A stretch of DNA of 64,000 nucleotides from positions 124,001 through 188,000 of the forward strand of contig JAAVVA010000002.1 in assembly GCA_018449715.1 (NCBI GenBank), in the 5' to 3' direction. The notes beneath the pieces were generated by a model. That model was not told the origin of the DNA. It did not search any database and saw only the letters and a program-made list of their open reading frames with translations. Source of the DNA: Acidobacteriaceae bacterium dw_441. GTDB lineage: Bacteria > Acidobacteriota > Terriglobia > Terriglobales > Acidobacteriaceae. Position 1 is the stretch's first letter, and each line of letters opens with the position of its first letter. The translations under genes and the position numbers were made by a program. This document shows positions 11,655 through 56,400 of the stretch, piece by piece.

Positions 11655-11754
11655 CTCGTCGTCCCTCGTCGTTAGAGATTGTTCCGGGCCAGCAAACAGT
11701 GTCCAACACTATCCTAATAGTGAACTGGCCGTTCCGGGTAACTCTCCCCTGGTT

Positions 11755-13377
11755 TCAGTGCCCACCCGAGGGCTTTCCGCTCACCTTGAACTTCGGAATC
11801 AGGAATACCAGGGGCATCACCGCAATCGTGAACCACCCGATGGCGCGAAACACGTCCATGAACCCGAGCAGCCGCGTCTGCGCATCCAGCTCCTGATAGT
11901 AGTGAAGATACGCGGCCCTCGCCGCATCCACATGCGAGTATCCCTGGCTCATCAGGTAGTTCGTCGTGCGACGCACCGCGTCCTGTAGCCACGCCCCTGA
12001 CGCCGGAAGATTCGCCGACATCACCGACTGGTGATAGCTCTGCCGCCTCTCACTCAGCGTCGTCGCAAACGAGATTCCGAAACTGCCTCCCCAGTTGCGG
12101 AAGAGGTTCGTCAGGCTCGAAGCGCGGTTGTTCTCATTCGGCTTTAGCTGCGAGTAGGCCACCACGCTCAGCGGCACGAAGAAGAACGCATACCCCAGTC
12201 CCTGGAACACCCTCGCCAACGCGAAGTGTTTGTAATCGCTCTGCAGCGTCAGTCCGCTGTAGTAGATCATCGAAGCCGCCACCGTCGTCAGGCTGAAGAT
12301 CAGCAGGTTTCGGGGAGACACCAGCCCTCTCTGCACCAGCTGCGCTCCCAACGGGGCCAGCAGCGTAATCACGAAGGCTCCCGGCCCCAGCACCAGTCCT
12401 GCATCAATCGCGCGATAGCCATACAGCGATTGCAGAATCTGAGGAATCATCGTCGTCGTCGCAAACAGGCCGAAGCCGAAGGCGAAATAAAACACCGAAG
12501 CCACCGCGAAGCTCGGATACCGTAGCAGCCGCAGCTCGATGATCGGGTCGTCGGTTCCCTTCAGCTCCCAGAAGATCGCAGCGCCAAAGCACGCCAACGC
12601 AATCCCGAACAGCCAGCAGATCAGCGGGCTTCCGAACCAGTCGTCGATCTGCCCGCGGTCCAGCAGAATCTCCAGCGCCGCCGATCCCAGCGCAAGCAGC
12701 CCGATGCCAACGCCGTCGATCCTCAGCGCCCCGCCCTGCCGTGCCTTCTCGCGCTCCTCTTTGAACGACGGAGGGTCGCTCACAAAGCGGTTCGTTAGAT
12801 AAAGCGAAAGCAACCCAATCGGAATATTGATCAGGAAGACCCAGCGCCAGTCGTAGTTATCGGTGATCCACCCACCCAGCACCGGCCCGATCGCCGGGGC
12901 CGTCACAATCGCCACCGTATACAACGCGAAGGCCGAGGCCCGCTTCGCCGGAGGAAACGTGTCCACCAGGATCGCCTGTTCCACCGGAGCCAGCCCGCCG
13001 CCGCCGATGCCCTGCAGCACACGGCTGATCAGCATCACGCCAAGGCTCGGCGCAATGCCGCAGAAGAACGACGTCAGCGTAAACAGCGCCACGCAGGCCA
13101 TGTAGTAGTTCTTGCGGCCGAAGACGCGGCTCAGCCACGCGCTCATCGGCAGCACGACGGCATTGGCAACAAGATACGTCGTCAGAATCCACGTAACCTC
13201 GTCGAAGCTGCGCCCCAGACCTCCCGCAATGTGCGGCAGCGATACGTTCGCAATGGAGGTGTCCAGCAGCTCCATGAACGTCGCCAGCGTCACCGTCAGG
13301 GCAATTACCCACGGATTGACCGGCTTCCGTGTCCCCGAGGCCTTCTGTTGCGGCAATGCCTGAACCGCTGCTCCCAT
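11755..13377 (-). CDS. emrB: EmrB/QacA-type DHA2 multidrug exporter
   Basis: A 540-residue MFS transporter of the 14-helix DHA2 family. The first helix carries LDTSIANVSLPHIAGGLG, the DHA2 signature with its Asp. Motif A is seen as WLSRVFGRKNYY, and motif C as APAIGPVLGGWITDNYDWRWVF. Helices then continue to the cytoplasmic C-terminus. The start has AAGGGA 5 bases upstream. It lies downstream of and in line with a TetR gene, with an operator in the 115-base gap, so it is probably repressed by that TetR. No EmrA adaptor is adjacent. The substrate is unknown. Confidence 0.9.
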   Translation of the reverse strand: MGAAVQALPQQKASGTRKPVNPWVIALTVTLATFMELLDTSIANVSLPHIAGGLGRSFDEVTWILTTYLVANAVVLPMSAWLSRVFGRKNYYMACVALFTLTSFFCGIAPSLGVMLISRVLQGIGGGGLAPVEQAILVDTFPPAKRASAFALYTVAIVTAPAIGPVLGGWITDNYDWRWVFLINIPIGLLSLYLTNRFVSDPPSFKEEREKARQGGALRIDGVGIGLLALGSAALEILLDRGQIDDWFGSPLICWLFGIALACFGAAIFWELKGTDDPIIELRLLRYPSFAVASVFYFAFGFGLFATTTMIPQILQSLYGYRAIDAGLVLGPGAFVITLLAPLGAQLVQRGLVSPRNLLIFSLTTVAASMIYYSGLTLQSDYKHFALARVFQGLGYAFFFVPLSVVAYSQLKPNENNRASSLTNLFRNWGGSFGISFATTLSERRQSYHQSVMSANLPASGAWLQDAVRRTTNYLMSQGYSHVDAARAAYLHYYQELDAQTRLLGFMDVFRAIGWFTIAVMPLVFLIPKFKVSGKPSGGH

Positions 13378-13398
13378 CGTTCCCTTGCCTTTTTATAA

Positions 13399-13421
13399 TT
13401 TGAGACTAAACAGTCTCTTTT
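13399..13421. promoter_or_regulatory. TetR operator in front of emrB
   Basis: TTTGAGACT-AAAC-AGTCTCTTTT contains a perfect GAGACT/AGTCTC inverted repeat. It overlaps the AT-rich promoter just upstream of emrB. A second site of the same design lies before the tetR gene (14116-14138). Confidence 0.7.
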
Positions 13422-13492
13422 AGACAAAGATTACGATGTCCCCGCGAAGGCCTCCGATTCCATATATTTTCAGCGCTCAGATTCCACAGGCT

Positions 13493-14092
13493 TTACGAGA
13501 CGGAAGACCCAGCCCGCACCCGCAGCTCAAGATAGGTGTCCAGATGCTCCATCGCATCCTTCAAGGCCTGATCGTTCTTCTCGATGCGGCTCACCAGCAT
13601 CCCTCCTTCAAGGCCCGAGACGATCAGTCGAGCCACCTGCTCGACGTCCACATCCGCCTGCACTGTCCCGGCAGCAATCCCATCGGCCAGAATCTTCCGC
13701 AGCATCTTCTGCCAATCGCGAAGCGCATTCCGCACCCGCTCCCGCAGAATCGGATTCCCATTGTCCGAATCCACCCCGGTATTCAGGATCGGACATCCCC
13801 CCGGAATCCCCGACCGGAAGACGAACCCCGCGATGTAGTGCTTCAGCCGGTCCACGTGGTTGGGAATCTCCTCCAGCCCCTGCCGCCGCAACGCCGAGGT
13901 CACCTTCCAGGCATAGTCGAAGGCCTCGGCGGCGATCTCTTCCTTGCTGTCGAAGTGCCGGTAGATGCCGCCCTTCTCCAGCCCCGTGGCCGCCATAATG
14001 TCCTTGAGGACACACCCCTCGTATCCCCTCTGATTGAACAGGGGCGCAGCCGCCGCAATAATCCTCTGTCGAGTCTCTTCTCCCTTATTCAT
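13493..14092 (-). CDS. TetR/AcrR-family transcriptional repressor
   Basis: A 199-residue regulator. The N-terminal helix-turn-helix is clear: TRQRIIAAAAPLFNQRGYEG followed by the recognition region VLKDIMAATGLEKGGIYRHF (about residues 28-47). The C-terminal ligand domain contains a Cys in GGCPILNTGVDSD, a segment common in the TetR_C_11/YcdC-like branch. The start has GAGAGGA at a good distance. Matching operators stand before this gene and before emrB, so it most likely represses itself and the exporter until a toxic ligand binds. Confidence 0.88.
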   Translation of the reverse strand: MNKGEETRQRIIAAAAPLFNQRGYEGCVLKDIMAATGLEKGGIYRHFDSKEEIAAEAFDYAWKVTSALRRQGLEEIPNHVDRLKHYIAGFVFRSGIPGGCPILNTGVDSDNGNPILRERVRNALRDWQKMLRKILADGIAAGTVQADVDVEQVARLIVSGLEGGMLVSRIEKNDQALKDAMEHLDTYLELRVRAGSSVS

Positions 14093-14115
14093 GCACGTTC
14101 CTCTCGAACAAGCCC

Positions 14116-14138
14116 AACAAAGACCCTACGGTCTCAAA
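14116..14138. promoter_or_regulatory. TetR operator in front of tetR
   Basis: Read on the minus strand, TTTGAGACC-GTAG-GGTCTTTGTT matches the emrB operator in arms, spacer length and T-rich flanks. The AGACC/GGTCT arms are perfect. It lies 24 bases upstream of the tetR start, which suggests autoregulation. Confidence 0.65.
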
Positions 14139-14148
14139 TCCATAAAAT

Positions 14149-14997
14149 TTAGACGCCGGCCCCCTCTGCGGAGATTCCGATTACGTTCAGCATCCTTCCC
14201 GTCCGTCCCTCTTCCATCCTGTGCGAGAAGTACCTCCGCCCCCCATCCTCCTCCAATTTGCATCCTGTGCATTCTCCGATCAGGCTAATTGCGTTTGGAG
14301 CAACTCCCGCGACCAAAAGCTGCCTCCGGTTCGCCTCCCACAGGTCGATCCTCAATTGAGCGGAGCCATCCTCTCCCAGCACCTTGCTCAGCAATTCTTC
14401 ACCGTAGGAAAACTCGGTGGAAAACTTCTCACGAACCTCCTCGCCCACTGTGTAGCAGCACGCCCCGATGCTCGGCCCCACCGCCGCCAGCAGATCCTCA
14501 GGCCGCGAGCCATACTCCTTCCTCATCGCCGCCACTCCCTGCTCCACGATCCTCGCTGCGGTCCCGCGCCACCCCGCATGGAACGCCCCTACCGCTCGCC
14601 GCACCGGATCGACCAGCAGCACCGGAACACAATCGGCAGTCCCTGCTGCCAGCAGCACGCCGGGAGCATCCGTCACCAGCCCGTCTCCCTCGAGCACAGC
14701 CTTGCCATCGTGCGTCTCCAGCCTCCTCGCCCGAGCCTCTTCTCCCGCAACAGGCCAGATGCGGTTTCCGTGTACCTGCCGGATGGTCACCAGCTTCATA
14801 GCAGGCCCGCCAGCCTTCTCCACCAGAAACCTCCTGTTTTCAGCGACATTGGCGGGATCGTCCTCTTTCGTCCATCCCACATTCAGCGACCGCCCCCCAT
14901 AAACCGTCGAAACTCCGCCCCGCCGCACACTGAAACCATGCCGCAGCCATTGCAACTTTCGCCACCCCGGCACATCTACAACAAAGGCTTCTGCCAT
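14149..14997 (-). CDS. pgeF: Peptidoglycan editing factor PgeF (laccase-domain, YfiH family)
   Basis: A 282-residue protein of the DUF152/Cu-oxidase_4 family, long annotated as polyphenol oxidase. The E. coli member removes mis-incorporated L-Ser from muropeptide precursors. The metal-site residues are all seen: His76 in QVHG, Cys123 in ADCVPVLL and His140 in FHAGWRG. The signature GPSIGACCYTVGEEV follows. It lies 56 bases upstream of tetR on the same strand, so partial read-through is possible. The -10-like TAGAAT (15007-15012) lies nine bases before the ATG with no Shine-Dalgarno. Confidence 0.9.
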   Translation of the reverse strand: MAEAFVVDVPGWRKLQWLRHGFSVRRGGVSTVYGGRSLNVGWTKEDDPANVAENRRFLVEKAGGPAMKLVTIRQVHGNRIWPVAGEEARARRLETHDGKAVLEGDGLVTDAPGVLLAAGTADCVPVLLVDPVRRAVGAFHAGWRGTAARIVEQGVAAMRKEYGSRPEDLLAAVGPSIGACCYTVGEEVREKFSTEFSYGEELLSKVLGEDGSAQLRIDLWEANRRQLLVAGVAPNAISLIGECTGCKLEEDGGRRYFSHRMEEGRTGRMLNVIGISAEGAGV

Positions 14998-15158: not shown

Positions 15159-16886
15159 ATGAGAGCGAACGTGCCCACGCCCACCACTGCTGCCACACAA
15201 CTTCTCCGCACTCGAATTGGCAAAATCTGCGTCGCCATTATCGGCTCCACCGCCGCCGAAATGATTGAAAAGGCGAATGCTGTCGTCAAGGAGAATCCCT
15301 TTCTCGAGTTCCGGCTCGACTACCTTGAAAAGCCCCTCGCGGCCCTTCCCAGGCTGAAGCAGTTCTTCGCCGACAACACCGCCGCCACCGGCATCGCCAC
15401 CTGTCGACGCGAACCGAACGGAGGCAAGTTCAAGGGAACGCTCGCCGCCGAGCTTGAGGTTCTCTCGAAGGCCGCCGGGGCAGGATTTCACCTCGTCGAT
15501 CTCGAGATCGAGTCCGCCGAGGCCCTCAAAAAAGGCGAGCTTCAGAAACTCCGCGATACCGGAATCGCCCTCATCATCAGCCACCACGATTTCAACGCGA
15601 CCAAGGACCTCGACAAGGTCTACGACCGCATCGCTCCCTTCCAGCCGGACTTCTACAAGATCGTCCCCACGGCCAAGTCGCTCAGCGACAACCTCACGCT
15701 CATGAACTTCATGGAGCGCCGCCACGAGACATCGAGCATCATCGGCATCTGCATGGGCGAGCCCGGAATCATCTCCCGCGTGCTCGGCCTCCGCGCCGGT
15801 TCGGTCTTCACCTTCGCCGCTGCCACCCAGGGCGAGGAGACAGGCCCCGGCCAGATCGCCGCCCGCACCCTGCTCGAAACCTACCGGGTGGACCAGGTCG
15901 ATGCCGCCACCAAGGTCTACGGCGTCGCGGGCAATCCGGTCCGCAGCTCGCTTTCGCCCATCATGCTGAACACGGCCTTCCGCCGCGAGACGGTCAACGC
16001 CGTCTACCTCGCGCTCCAGACGACCAAGGTCAGCGACCTGATCAAGCTGGTCAACGAGATCCCCATCCAGGGCCTCAGCGTCACCATGCCGCACAAGCAG
16101 GAGATCATGCAGTACCTTGAGCGCACCGACCCGCTCTCGGCCAAGATCGGCGCCTGCAACACGGTCCTGCGCGCGCAGGACGGCAAGCTCTATGGCTTCA
16201 ACACCGACGTCGCCGGGATCGTCGGACCGCTCGAAAAGCGCATGTCGCTTCGCGGAGCCAAGGCGCTCGTCCTCGGAGCCGGAGGAGCCGCCCGCGCCGC
16301 AGTCTTCGGCCTGCGCGACAAGGGAGCAGATGTCTTCATCCTCAACCGCACCGCCGAGACTGCACAGAAGCTCGCGAAGCAGGCTGGCGCGAAGACGATC
16401 AAGAAGGAAGCCGTCGCCAAGACGCCCTTCGACGTCATCATCAACGCCACCTCCATCGGCATGGCCGGGCAAAAGGGAACGCACCTTCTCGACAAGGAGC
16501 TGAACACGAAGCTGGTCTTCGACCTGGTCTACAACCCGCTCGAAACCCCGCTCATCCGTCTTGCCCGCCAGCAGAACATCCCCATCATCACCGGCGTCGA
16601 GATGTTCGTGCAGCAGGGAGCCCGCCAGTTCGAGATCTGGACCGGCAAGCCCGCCCCCGAGGAGGAGATGCTCCGCGTGGTCATCCACGCCCTTCGCCAG
16701 AAGGCCGAGGCTGAAGCCGCGGCAACCTCCGAAGAAGCTGCTCCCACGACGAAGGCCACCTCTGTCCCCAAGGCCGTTCCGGTCGCCAGGACTGAAACAA
16801 AAACCAAGGCAGAACCAAAGGCCAAGGCTGAGACGAAGTCAAAGCCTGAGGTCAAGGCTCCCGCAAAACGCAAGAAGGCCTCCTAA
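15159..16886 (+). CDS. aroDE: Bifunctional 3-dehydroquinate dehydratase / shikimate dehydrogenase with basic tail
   Basis: A 575-residue fusion catalysing two consecutive steps of the shikimate pathway. Residues 20-245 form a type I dehydroquinase, with the catalytic His143 in ISHHDF and the Schiff-base Lys167 in DFYK. Residues 253-510 form shikimate dehydrogenase, with NPVRSSLSP (substrate serines), Lys313 in TMPHK, Asp350 in NTD and the NADP loop GAGGAA (373-378). Both sets of catalytic residues are present, so both activities are expected. The last 60 residues are a Lys/Ala/Glu/Pro-rich, histone-H1-like tail not found in ordinary AroD or AroE. The gene is monocistronic, without a clear Shine-Dalgarno. 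Confidence 0.92.
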   Translation: MRANVPTPTTAATQLLRTRIGKICVAIIGSTAAEMIEKANAVVKENPFLEFRLDYLEKPLAALPRLKQFFADNTAATGIATCRREPNGGKFKGTLAAELEVLSKAAGAGFHLVDLEIESAEALKKGELQKLRDTGIALIISHHDFNATKDLDKVYDRIAPFQPDFYKIVPTAKSLSDNLTLMNFMERRHETSSIIGICMGEPGIISRVLGLRAGSVFTFAAATQGEETGPGQIAARTLLETYRVDQVDAATKVYGVAGNPVRSSLSPIMLNTAFRRETVNAVYLALQTTKVSDLIKLVNEIPIQGLSVTMPHKQEIMQYLERTDPLSAKIGACNTVLRAQDGKLYGFNTDVAGIVGPLEKRMSLRGAKALVLGAGGAARAAVFGLRDKGADVFILNRTAETAQKLAKQAGAKTIKKEAVAKTPFDVIINATSIGMAGQKGTHLLDKELNTKLVFDLVYNPLETPLIRLARQQNIPIITGVEMFVQQGARQFEIWTGKPAPEEEMLRVVIHALRQKAEAEAAATSEEAAPTTKATSVPKAVPVARTETKTKAEPKAKAETKSKPEVKAPAKRKKAS

Positions 16887-38279: not shown

Positions 38280-38379
38280 ATTATCTGATGCGACCGGGAA
38301 ACCTGACGGTCTCTTTATTTATCGCATTTCGTTAGATGAGCATCAAACATCTCCCGATGCAGGATGATACCGTAGCGAT

Positions 38380-53483: not shown

Positions 53484-56400
53484 TTAGAAGTTGAACTTCA
53501 CTCCAAACTCCATCGTGCGGTTTTCCGAAACGACGGAAGAGATCCTTCCAAGAGTGGAAGTATTGGTGACCGAAGCTCCAGGAGCGCCGAAGTTAGGATG
53601 GTTGAAGGTGTTGAAGGCTTCGGCACGAAGCTGAAGCCTGTACTCTCTCCAGATGGTCGTGTTCTTGGTCAGGTTCATGTCCCAGTTCTGGTAACCGGGC
53701 CCCCGCAGCATGTTGTATGCGGAGGTTCCATAGGTGAAGTTCGGAGGCGCAGTAAAGGCGGCTGGATTGAACCACTGGTCCTTCGTTTTGTGGGACGGGT
53801 AAAGAGGGACTCCCGGTACAACATTCGCGCGTCCGCTTACGAGGCCGACAGGATTACCCGGAGCGGTGTAGCTGACGGAGAATGGCGTTCCCTCCTGGAA
53901 TGCGGTGATTCCAGAGATCTGCCAACCACTCACGATCCTGTTGACGAATGCATTGGCAGTCCCGAGCAACAGGTGCCCCTGGCCAATAGGCAACCCATAG
54001 GAGTAGCTAACCCGGAACGTAATGGGAGCGATATTGCCAATATTTCCGTAAGAGTCGCCGATATTTGCAGGGTCCTCGAACGTCTCCAGTCCCAGCATCC
54101 TTTCCCACTGGAACTCAGCGTTGACCATGAACCCATTGCTGTAGCGCTTATGGACTCCGGCCTGCAGAGAGTTCATCGTGGTGTGATACATCGGCTCAAA
54201 TACGTAGCTGATTGTGGAGAAGGGTTGGACAGGACGGCGAGATTGAACAACACCCGGAGCCGGAGGAGGAAGGTTGATATCCCGGCTCGCAGAGCCGCCA
54301 GAGTTGTTCAGGTGGATATTGCGCTGACCGACATAACCGACATGGATGTCCAGACCCTTCGAGAACTGGTGTTCCACAGCCAGGTTGTACTGTTCGGTAT
54401 AGGGAGCGACCGTGGAGTGCTGCGCAGTGACAGAGGGGTTGGCCGCGAAGGCTCCCGTGCTCGAAAACGGCGCATACATGGTGAAGGCAGGAACCGTGCC
54501 GCTCGGTTGCGAGAAGCTTTGCGAGCTCGTGAAGGGATAGCCCGAAGAAGAGCCCTGCTCAATATACTGCGAGGGAATCATGTTGAAGAAGAGGCCAAAC
54601 GCACCGCGTACCACGGTGTTCGGCAGCATCTGATAGGAAAAGCCGAAACGTGGAGCGATGTTCGTCTTCGCCAGTCCCAGATAGCTGAAGACATTCGACG
54701 GCAAGCCGACCGAGGACGCCAGCACCGTGTTCGGAATGAAAGCAGGGATAACCGAGGTGGGGTAGGTCTTGGCGAAGATGACGACCTTCTTCACCTCGGG
54801 AACATAGAGAGAGTTTTGACCGTAGGGATTCTCTTGAAACACCTGCAGGTCATAACGAATACCGGCATTGATCGTCAGCTTGGGTATCGGCTTGAAGTCA
54901 TCCTGAACATACATGCCGTACTGGCTTGAGAAGTTCCTGGTGACAGTGTTCGCTGGGAGCGAGTTCCCCGTCGAAGCAGGATATCCCAGCAGGAAGTCCG
55001 CATAGGCGTTGCCTGTATAGCGGCCATTGAACGAAAAGCTTCCCGTGTTTGAACCAGCATTATCGTTTCTATCGAAGAGGAAGGAGAACCCTGCCTTGAT
55101 GGTGTGTCTCGCCAGAACCTTCGTCACCGAGGTATTAATCTGTTCGTCCTGCTCGAGTCCCTTCGACCCGCCTTCGCCCGGCGATGCAATGTTGGTAATG
55201 GAGATTCCCGGAGAGCCCGGGATCAACTCTGTACCAAGCCCGGGGATGATCGAGGACCAATCGGTCTTATTGTTCTGCGGGATGCGATAGATCGGCAGAT
55301 GGAAGTAGGAGGCAGACGTATCCCAGATCAGGGTTGGAGAGAAGGTGTGGGTCCAGCCAACGATGAAATTGGTATTGTGTTCTCCATCCTGGGACATGCC
55401 TCCGGACAAGCTCGAAGTGCCTACGTCAGGATTTGGACCGTAGTTGCCCTTCATGAACGTTCCACGGATCTGATTCTTTTCGTTGATCCTGTGATCGAGG
55501 CGAAGCGAGAAGCGAGTAGCGTTATCCGTAAACGGTACAAGCTCCACCGTATTGACGCCGATCCCAGGCTTGGTGGGCATCGGGTAGAGCATCTTCTGCA
55601 GTTGGAGATCCACCGTATTGAGCATGCTTTGCGGAATCACGTTTCCGGCGAAGGCCTGTCCTGTCAGCGGATTGATGATCGGATCGCTGATCTCGGAGAA
55701 ATTACCTTGCCGCTCCAGCACGGTTGGCTGCTGACTGCTAACCGTGGCAGCCTGCGTCAGCTTGTACCCTTCATACGCAAAGAAGAAGAAGGAACGATCC
55801 TTACCGTTATAGATTTTTGGAATATAGATGGGACCGTTAACATTCCCGCCATACTCATTGCGCTGGTACGCCGGACGCGGTTGCCCGCCGGCGAAGTAGC
55901 TCTTTGCAGCGGTGCCCTTGCTCCGGTTGAACTCCAGAAGCTCTCCGTGCAATTGATTTCCACCGCTCTTGCTGGCGACGATCACCTGGGCCGCCTGGGC
56001 GAACTCAGCAGAACCACCCGAGGTAATCATCTTGAACTCGGAGATTGCATCGAGCGGAGGTACCTCGCCCTGGCCGCGTTGCAAGCTGATCTGCATGTTG
56101 GTAACGCCGTCCAGCGTGAAGCCGACACCGCCGTAGGAGTTGCGCTGCGCCCCGCCAATCGAGAAGGTCACGCCTCTGTTAGGAATCGTGTCCTGCGCCG
56201 TAGCGGAGATCGCCTACACTCCGGGGATAAGCTGCAACAGACCGATGATGCTCAAATGGCTATTCAGCGGCGTGTTCTGCAGCGTCTGACTGTCGATCAC
56301 CAGGCCTACGGCAGAGTTCTCCGTTTGCAGCACAGGACTGTCGGAGTTGACCGTAATAGTCTGCTGCTCCGAGCCAATCTCGAGCTTGGCATGAATCTGT

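Follow-up and report, generated by a model that had tools for sequence, protein, structure and literature searches.

Two similar dyads lie about the tetR gene of this locus, one ahead of tetR itself and one ahead of the neighbouring efflux gene. Which regulator reads them, and does its reach end at the locus? We addressed both questions in the window, the whole 64,000-nucleotide stretch of DNA analysed, which comes from a soil acidobacterium, and in related genomes.

The tetR–emrB locus and its two dyads

The locus reads pgeF, tetR, 'emrB', all on the minus strand. The tetR gene (13,493–14,092) encodes a 199-aa TetR-family repressor with TetR_N and TetR_C_13 domains, both above the Pfam gathering score (PF00440, 51.1 bits against a cut-off of 24; PF16925, 92.7 bits against 27), a recognition helix reading KGGIYRHF and Cys100 inside a GGCP motif. 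Its closest solved chain by sequence is 3qbm (E 4e-51), and it fell below the cut-offs of the AcuR model (NF051457, 60.2 vs 247) and the model for ScbR-type autoregulator receptors (NF041196, 90.9 vs 150). Directly downstream on the same strand, 'emrB' (11,755–13,377) encodes a 540-aa DHA2-family MFS efflux permease (TIGR00711, 403.8 bits, cut-off 230.2); since it missed the cut-off for EmrB proper (NF000391, 329.2 vs 925 bits), we regard the product as a DHA2 pump and not as EmrB proper. On the other side, pgeF (peptidoglycan editing factor/laccase domain; 14,149–14,997, minus strand; TIGR00726, 167.5 bits, cut-off 141.15) also stands upstream of tetR in four relatives (L044–L047). Beyond it, positions 15,159–16,886 carry a fused 3-dehydroquinate dehydratase/shikimate dehydrogenase gene (aroD-aroE) whose product has a Lys/Ala/Pro-rich C-terminal tail. 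At the opposite end, the intergenic stretch separating emrB from the sugar-dehydrogenase-like gene downstream (11,655–11,754) holds a further perfect dyad, CACTAT-CCTA-ATAGTG, with no T-run in the direction of the genes; it is possibly the operator of another regulator.

The sequence-only reading had placed a matching pair of sites before the exporter and the regulator, and both lie where it put them. The exact pattern TTTGAGACY-N4-RGTCT occurs twice in the 64 kb, at 13,399–13,416 on the plus strand and 14,138–14,121 on the minus strand, against 0.0009 expected with independent bases and a mean of 0.0067 in 300 first-order Markov simulations. A chance resemblance in A/T-rich promoter DNA might be argued from the looser pattern, since 1.10 sites of this type are expected per window at up to two mismatches and four were found, a number reached in 3 of 100 shuffles. 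However, none of the 300 simulations held two or more exact matches and the dyad is conserved in relatives, which leaves chance with next to no probability.

Sites 1 and 2 both represent the same 16-bp dyad, GAGACYGNNCRGTCTC, in diverged form. The core of putative operator 1, GAGACTAAACAGTCTC (13,402–13,417, no strand assigned), is a perfect 6+6 dyad with a spacer of 4; it lies within the 115-bp gap ahead of emrB (start 13,377, minus strand), its centre about 32 bp ahead of the start codon, and has its counterpart on the emrB side of tandem relatives. The core of putative operator 2, GAGACCGTAGGGTCTT (14,120–14,135, minus strand), lies in the 56 bp that separate the tetR start (14,092, minus strand) from the stop of pgeF, which bounds it; its centre is about 35 bp ahead of the start codon, and both tandem and divergent relatives have a counterpart ahead of tetR. 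A 28-mer weight matrix was built exclusively from other genomes (82 distinct sites, in each region the one closest to the consensus, with at least 10/14); among all window positions it ranked site 1 first (30.2 bits) and site 2 second (16.9 bits), while with the 16-bp core matrix alone site 2 ranks third, behind position 38,298. The window's two copies are among the less perfect copies of the dyad: operator 2 scores 12/14, and operator 1 is without the inner G..C found in most relatives (G at 79%). The consensus first proposed thus agrees with both sites but is too short, the predicted operator spanning 16 bp and including the inner G..C that had been omitted. The T-rich flanks noted earlier are indeed common to both window sites, but in relatives they amount to a mere A/T preference (0.54–0.58 bit at the two nearest positions, less than 0.3 further out). 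A search of the minus strand around the two sites revealed no sigma-70-like promoter.

Site 1 also has the look of a hairpin, since TTTT comes after GAGACTAAACAGTCTC on the plus strand, and might be read as an intrinsic terminator or processing hairpin instead of an operator. The same genome offers a terminator-like example at C6:110121, where a perfect GAGACT...AGTCTC between convergent frames forms part of a longer, G/C-rich hairpin with T's after it. At site 1, however, no T-run follows the dyad in the gene direction (minus strand), a terminator scan of 13,300–14,300 came back empty, and in relatives the dyad is conserved between divergent genes, upstream of both, a setting in which a terminator would not be expected. 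We therefore rejected this reading as highly improbable.

Conservation of the dyad among relatives

Two overlapping sets of loci were compared: a genus-level set of 61 genomes, 22 with a TetR match, giving 26 loci counting the window, and a named set of the best 80 of 310 TetR relatives from one scan of species genomes. An exact-dyad search that used no motif, run over 76 non-redundant tetR upstream regions, returned GACCG-N2-CGGTC in 28, AGACC-N4-GGTCT in 24 and GAGAC-N6-GTCTC in 23, and these three top dyads are overlapping cores of one 16-mer. In 20 control sets the top dyad occurred in one to three regions, and in 20 shuffled sets in one or two. The family consensus is GAGACCGNNCGGTCTC; the best match to it reached at least 11/14 in 66 of the 76 regions, compared with 9 of 760 random segments of the same loci. 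A score of at least 10 was reached by 63 of the 760 random segments, and 10 is the minimum admitted in some loci. Arms that read GAGACC/GGTCTC are BsaI sites, a point that matters for cloning.

At genus level, the 22 emrB-linked loci comprised 14 divergent ones with one shared site and eight tandem ones with a site before each gene. All 22 scored at least 10/14 before tetR (20 scored at least 11), and all eight tandem loci scored 11–14 of 14 before emrB. The four loci that had no emrB in the roughly 9 kb examined lacked a good site, none scoring above 10. In the named set, the dyad scored at least 11/14 before tetR in 39/39 divergent tetR/emrB loci, including one (L117) with emrB 2.9 kb away. 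The 12 named tandem loci all scored at least 10 at both genes, and ten of them at least 11 at both; one, L169, is from Gemmatimonadota and has an EmrB relative only 33% identical. Among the remaining 29 named loci, with emrB in neither order, 27 were classed as having none, some of them with contig ends close by, and two (L144, L162) had emrB in another orientation. In a locus represented by two sources (L048/L095), tetR and emrB lie 1.5 kb apart with the dyad before both.

Most emrB-linked loci are therefore divergent with one shared operator-like site, and the window's clade is tandem with a site for each gene. In a midpoint-rooted TetR tree of 80 rows (the window and 79 of the 80 named loci; L162, whose match starts at residue 24, was left out), the tandem rows from Acidobacteriota, 12 with the window, group in a single clade whose support, 94/91, falls slightly short of the tool's star threshold. 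Because these rows form one clade, the two-operator layout most likely had a single origin, having arisen once from the common divergent layout or having given rise to it.

Association with one TetR subfamily

The dyad follows the recognition helix of the adjacent TetR. With the helix KGG[ILV]YRHF, a site of at least 11 stands before tetR in 68/71 loci, and with other helices in 0/8 (79 loci scored); the three exceptions are L092 (10), L112 (9) and L165 (10). The eight other-helix loci form a single clade (support 100/98), so the contrast between helix and operator counts as one evolutionary event. This sister clade (L124, L127, L140, L142, L150, L151, L157, L163) has the helix K[GS][ST]xYGHF, and its loci carry neither the dyad nor emrB.

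The site before tetR extends to Chloroflexota (L160, L161 and L168 at 11; L166 at 13), Bacillota (L167 at 12; L165 only 10) and Gemmatimonadota (L169 at 11). In L160, L161 and L165–L169 much the same site is kept, mostly beside different target genes. The next genes, named by eye, look thioesterase-like in L160, L161 and L168, DinB-like in L165 and DJ-1-like in L167.

Half-sites such as GACCG are common to several TetR proteins (PMC7022988, PMC9210681), so the two sites could in principle serve a regulator other than the adjacent TetR. That the dyad tracks this TetR subfamily across phyla and through changing neighbours, whereas the sister clade, whose recognition helix differs, lacks it, makes such a regulator very improbable. 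The two dyads are instead, with high confidence, predicted to be operators of the TetR_C_13-type repressor encoded between them. The earlier proposal of TetR operators before both genes is upheld as a prediction by the dyad in 39/39 divergent loci, its presence at both genes in tandem loci and its absence beside the other-helix clade. This is a well-supported predicted operator, spanning four phyla, for a TetR subfamily without a described one in the literature searched. Together with the accompanying helix signature, it allows targets to be predicted in soil phyla that have been little studied.

Candidate further sites in the genome

A genome scan for additional sites had been suggested by the sequence-only reading. 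With the refined pattern at up to two mismatches, the genome held 54 places compared with 65 for the reversed control, a count that lends no support to a broad regulon. The weight matrix points to one candidate in the window, at 38,298–38,313. In a profile search of the same genome (profile from 69 sites of other genomes; 150 of 1072 candidates scored), the matches with E 10 or less were three: site 1 on both strands and C4:162299, or window position 38,299. This candidate was the second-ranked place, with E 8.5, and operator 2 was absent from the matches at that threshold among the 150 of 1072 candidates scored. The same search in six other genomes put the tetR/emrB sites at the top, together with some further places, five of which were looked at.

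Several other places were set aside. Three exact matches to the short pattern, at C1:1496091, C4:245716 and C9:292113, received matrix scores of -2.0, 1.3 and -15.6 bits; they fall in reading frames or, in the case of C9:292113, in hairpin-like DNA. A site at 55,253 (14.6 bits) falls inside a long reading frame and was taken as chance. The sugar-dehydrogenase-like gene downstream of emrB (named by eye) was rejected as a regulon member, with an upstream site in KBS 146 only (10.7 bits) that was not kept in six other copies scored, the window's included. The other place with one mismatch, GAGACCGAACTGTCTC at G000:C9:251423 (15.6 bits), lies inside what was identified by eye as 23S rRNA, and is a decoy for genome-wide operator scans.

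The candidate third site, GAAACCTGACGGTCTC (38,298–38,313, no strand assigned; 13.2 bits), lies between the divergent genes bshC (TIGR03998; bacillithiol synthesis) and a NUDIX gene. If the same TetR also controls this pair, efflux would be joined to bacillithiol synthesis, as in thiol or electrophile stress, and the module would not be self-contained. Besides the rank of the site in the profile search, its alignment speaks for this reading: the aligned sites of TAA 166 (18.4 bits) and E. modestus (18.8 bits) outscore the window's, and core identity exceeds that of the columns beside it between the window and TAA 166 (12/16 vs 15/38) and between the window and E. modestus (15/16 vs 24/38). Cys100, invariant in 24 aligned TetR sequences (window included; 26 loci in the set), is consistent with a thiol or electrophile link. 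Between TAA 166 and E. modestus, however, the core stands at 11/16 vs 19/37, a weak difference, and the sites of these two genomes were not among the profile-search matches listed. Moreover, in the 36 genomes compared upstream of bshC, with truncated and more distant loci left out, only three reached at least 13 bits, the window included; the other 33 fell below, the next best at 7.6 (L184), and the site is lost in the close relative KBS 146. Six of 374,476 background positions score at least 13.1 bits, and about one chance match per 64 kb is therefore expected. Control of bshC/NUDIX by this TetR is thus possible but doubtful. The description of the module as self-contained is probably right yet not safe, given this weaker candidate aligned in two close relatives.

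If the bshC site is real, efflux is tied to the supply of a low-molecular-weight thiol. We offer, a shade more tentatively still, a wider scenario. In four phyla (Acidobacteriota, Chloroflexota, Bacillota and Gemmatimonadota) one TetR_C_13 subfamily would retain its operator as neighbouring targets swap, and in a young Edaphobacter branch the bshC/NUDIX promoter would have come under its control. A single repressor, with Cys100 as its possible sensor, would then couple drug efflux and bacillithiol synthesis.

Proposed regulation

Returning to the locus itself, the best reading is repression of both tetR and the DHA2/EmrB-type pump gene by the TetR_C_13-type protein. From the dyads, where they lie, how well they are conserved and which TetR subfamily they go with, we infer the following cycle. 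Without inducer, a TetR dimer, or a pair of dimers, would sit on GAGACYGNNCRGTCTC just ahead of tetR and the efflux gene and block promoters presumed to lie there. A toxic compound, the presumed type of inducer, would bind the C-terminal domain or react with the conserved Cys100, and the repressor would leave. The pump would then be made, and tetR would also rise through loss of autoregulation and reset the switch. The usual mechanism of the family is a dimer that blocks promoters sterically until a ligand releases it (PMC3511530, PMC9342713), and the latter paper describes cysteine-based release for NemR and DitR (PMC9342713). By analogy, Cys100 is possibly the sensor of the window TetR. In tandem loci, emrB could be read through from the tetR promoter as well.

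Comparison with known systems

Chain 3vpr, which we take to be the PfmR/TTHB023 protein, is a sequence relative of the window TetR (E 9e-13). QacA is a pump of the DHA2 type, and its repressor QacR differs from the window TetR in its C-terminal domain.

Searches of the literature on Acidobacteriota/Granulicella TetR, on TetR/EmrB operators and on the operator letters gave no paper on this module among the matches listed, in coverage that mostly excludes subscription journals. PfmR/TTHB023 of Thermus thermophilus, a TetR-family protein, binds the operator CTGACCGATCGGTCAG with a KD of about 2 nM (PMC7022988); this operator shares its 12-bp centre, GACCGATCGGTC, with the family consensus here, but has outer bases CT/AG instead of GA/TC, and the protein is distant and acts at fatty-acid gene promoters, unlike the efflux gene here. 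The SbtR/TTHA0167 operator, TGACYrnnyRGTCA (PMC7022988), has the GACY-NNNN-RGTC frame of both window sites, with the flank T/A in place of GA/TC and with other targets. QacR of the QacR/qacA system of Staphylococcus aureus, with the IR1 operator CTTATAGACCGATCGATCGGTCTATAAG (PMC9210681), is, like the repressor proposed here, a TetR-family repressor of a multidrug pump with AGACCG/CGGTCT half-sites; unlike in GAGACYGNNCRGTCTC, these half-sites are further apart and each operator takes a pair of dimers. The divergent TetR/tetA paradigm and its 200-bp rule (PMC3511530) fit 37/39 divergent relatives, which have less than 200 bp between starts and a shared site, whereas the window is tandem with two sites.

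Both window sites fit GACY-N4-RGTC, and the family consensus GAGACCGNNCGGTCTC fits the class of PfmR-, SbtR- and QacR-like operators. By this resemblance of its core to published operators, the predicted operator is of a known TetR type. The pair of dyads is real and well conserved, and the efflux switch proposed from it is ordinary in kind.
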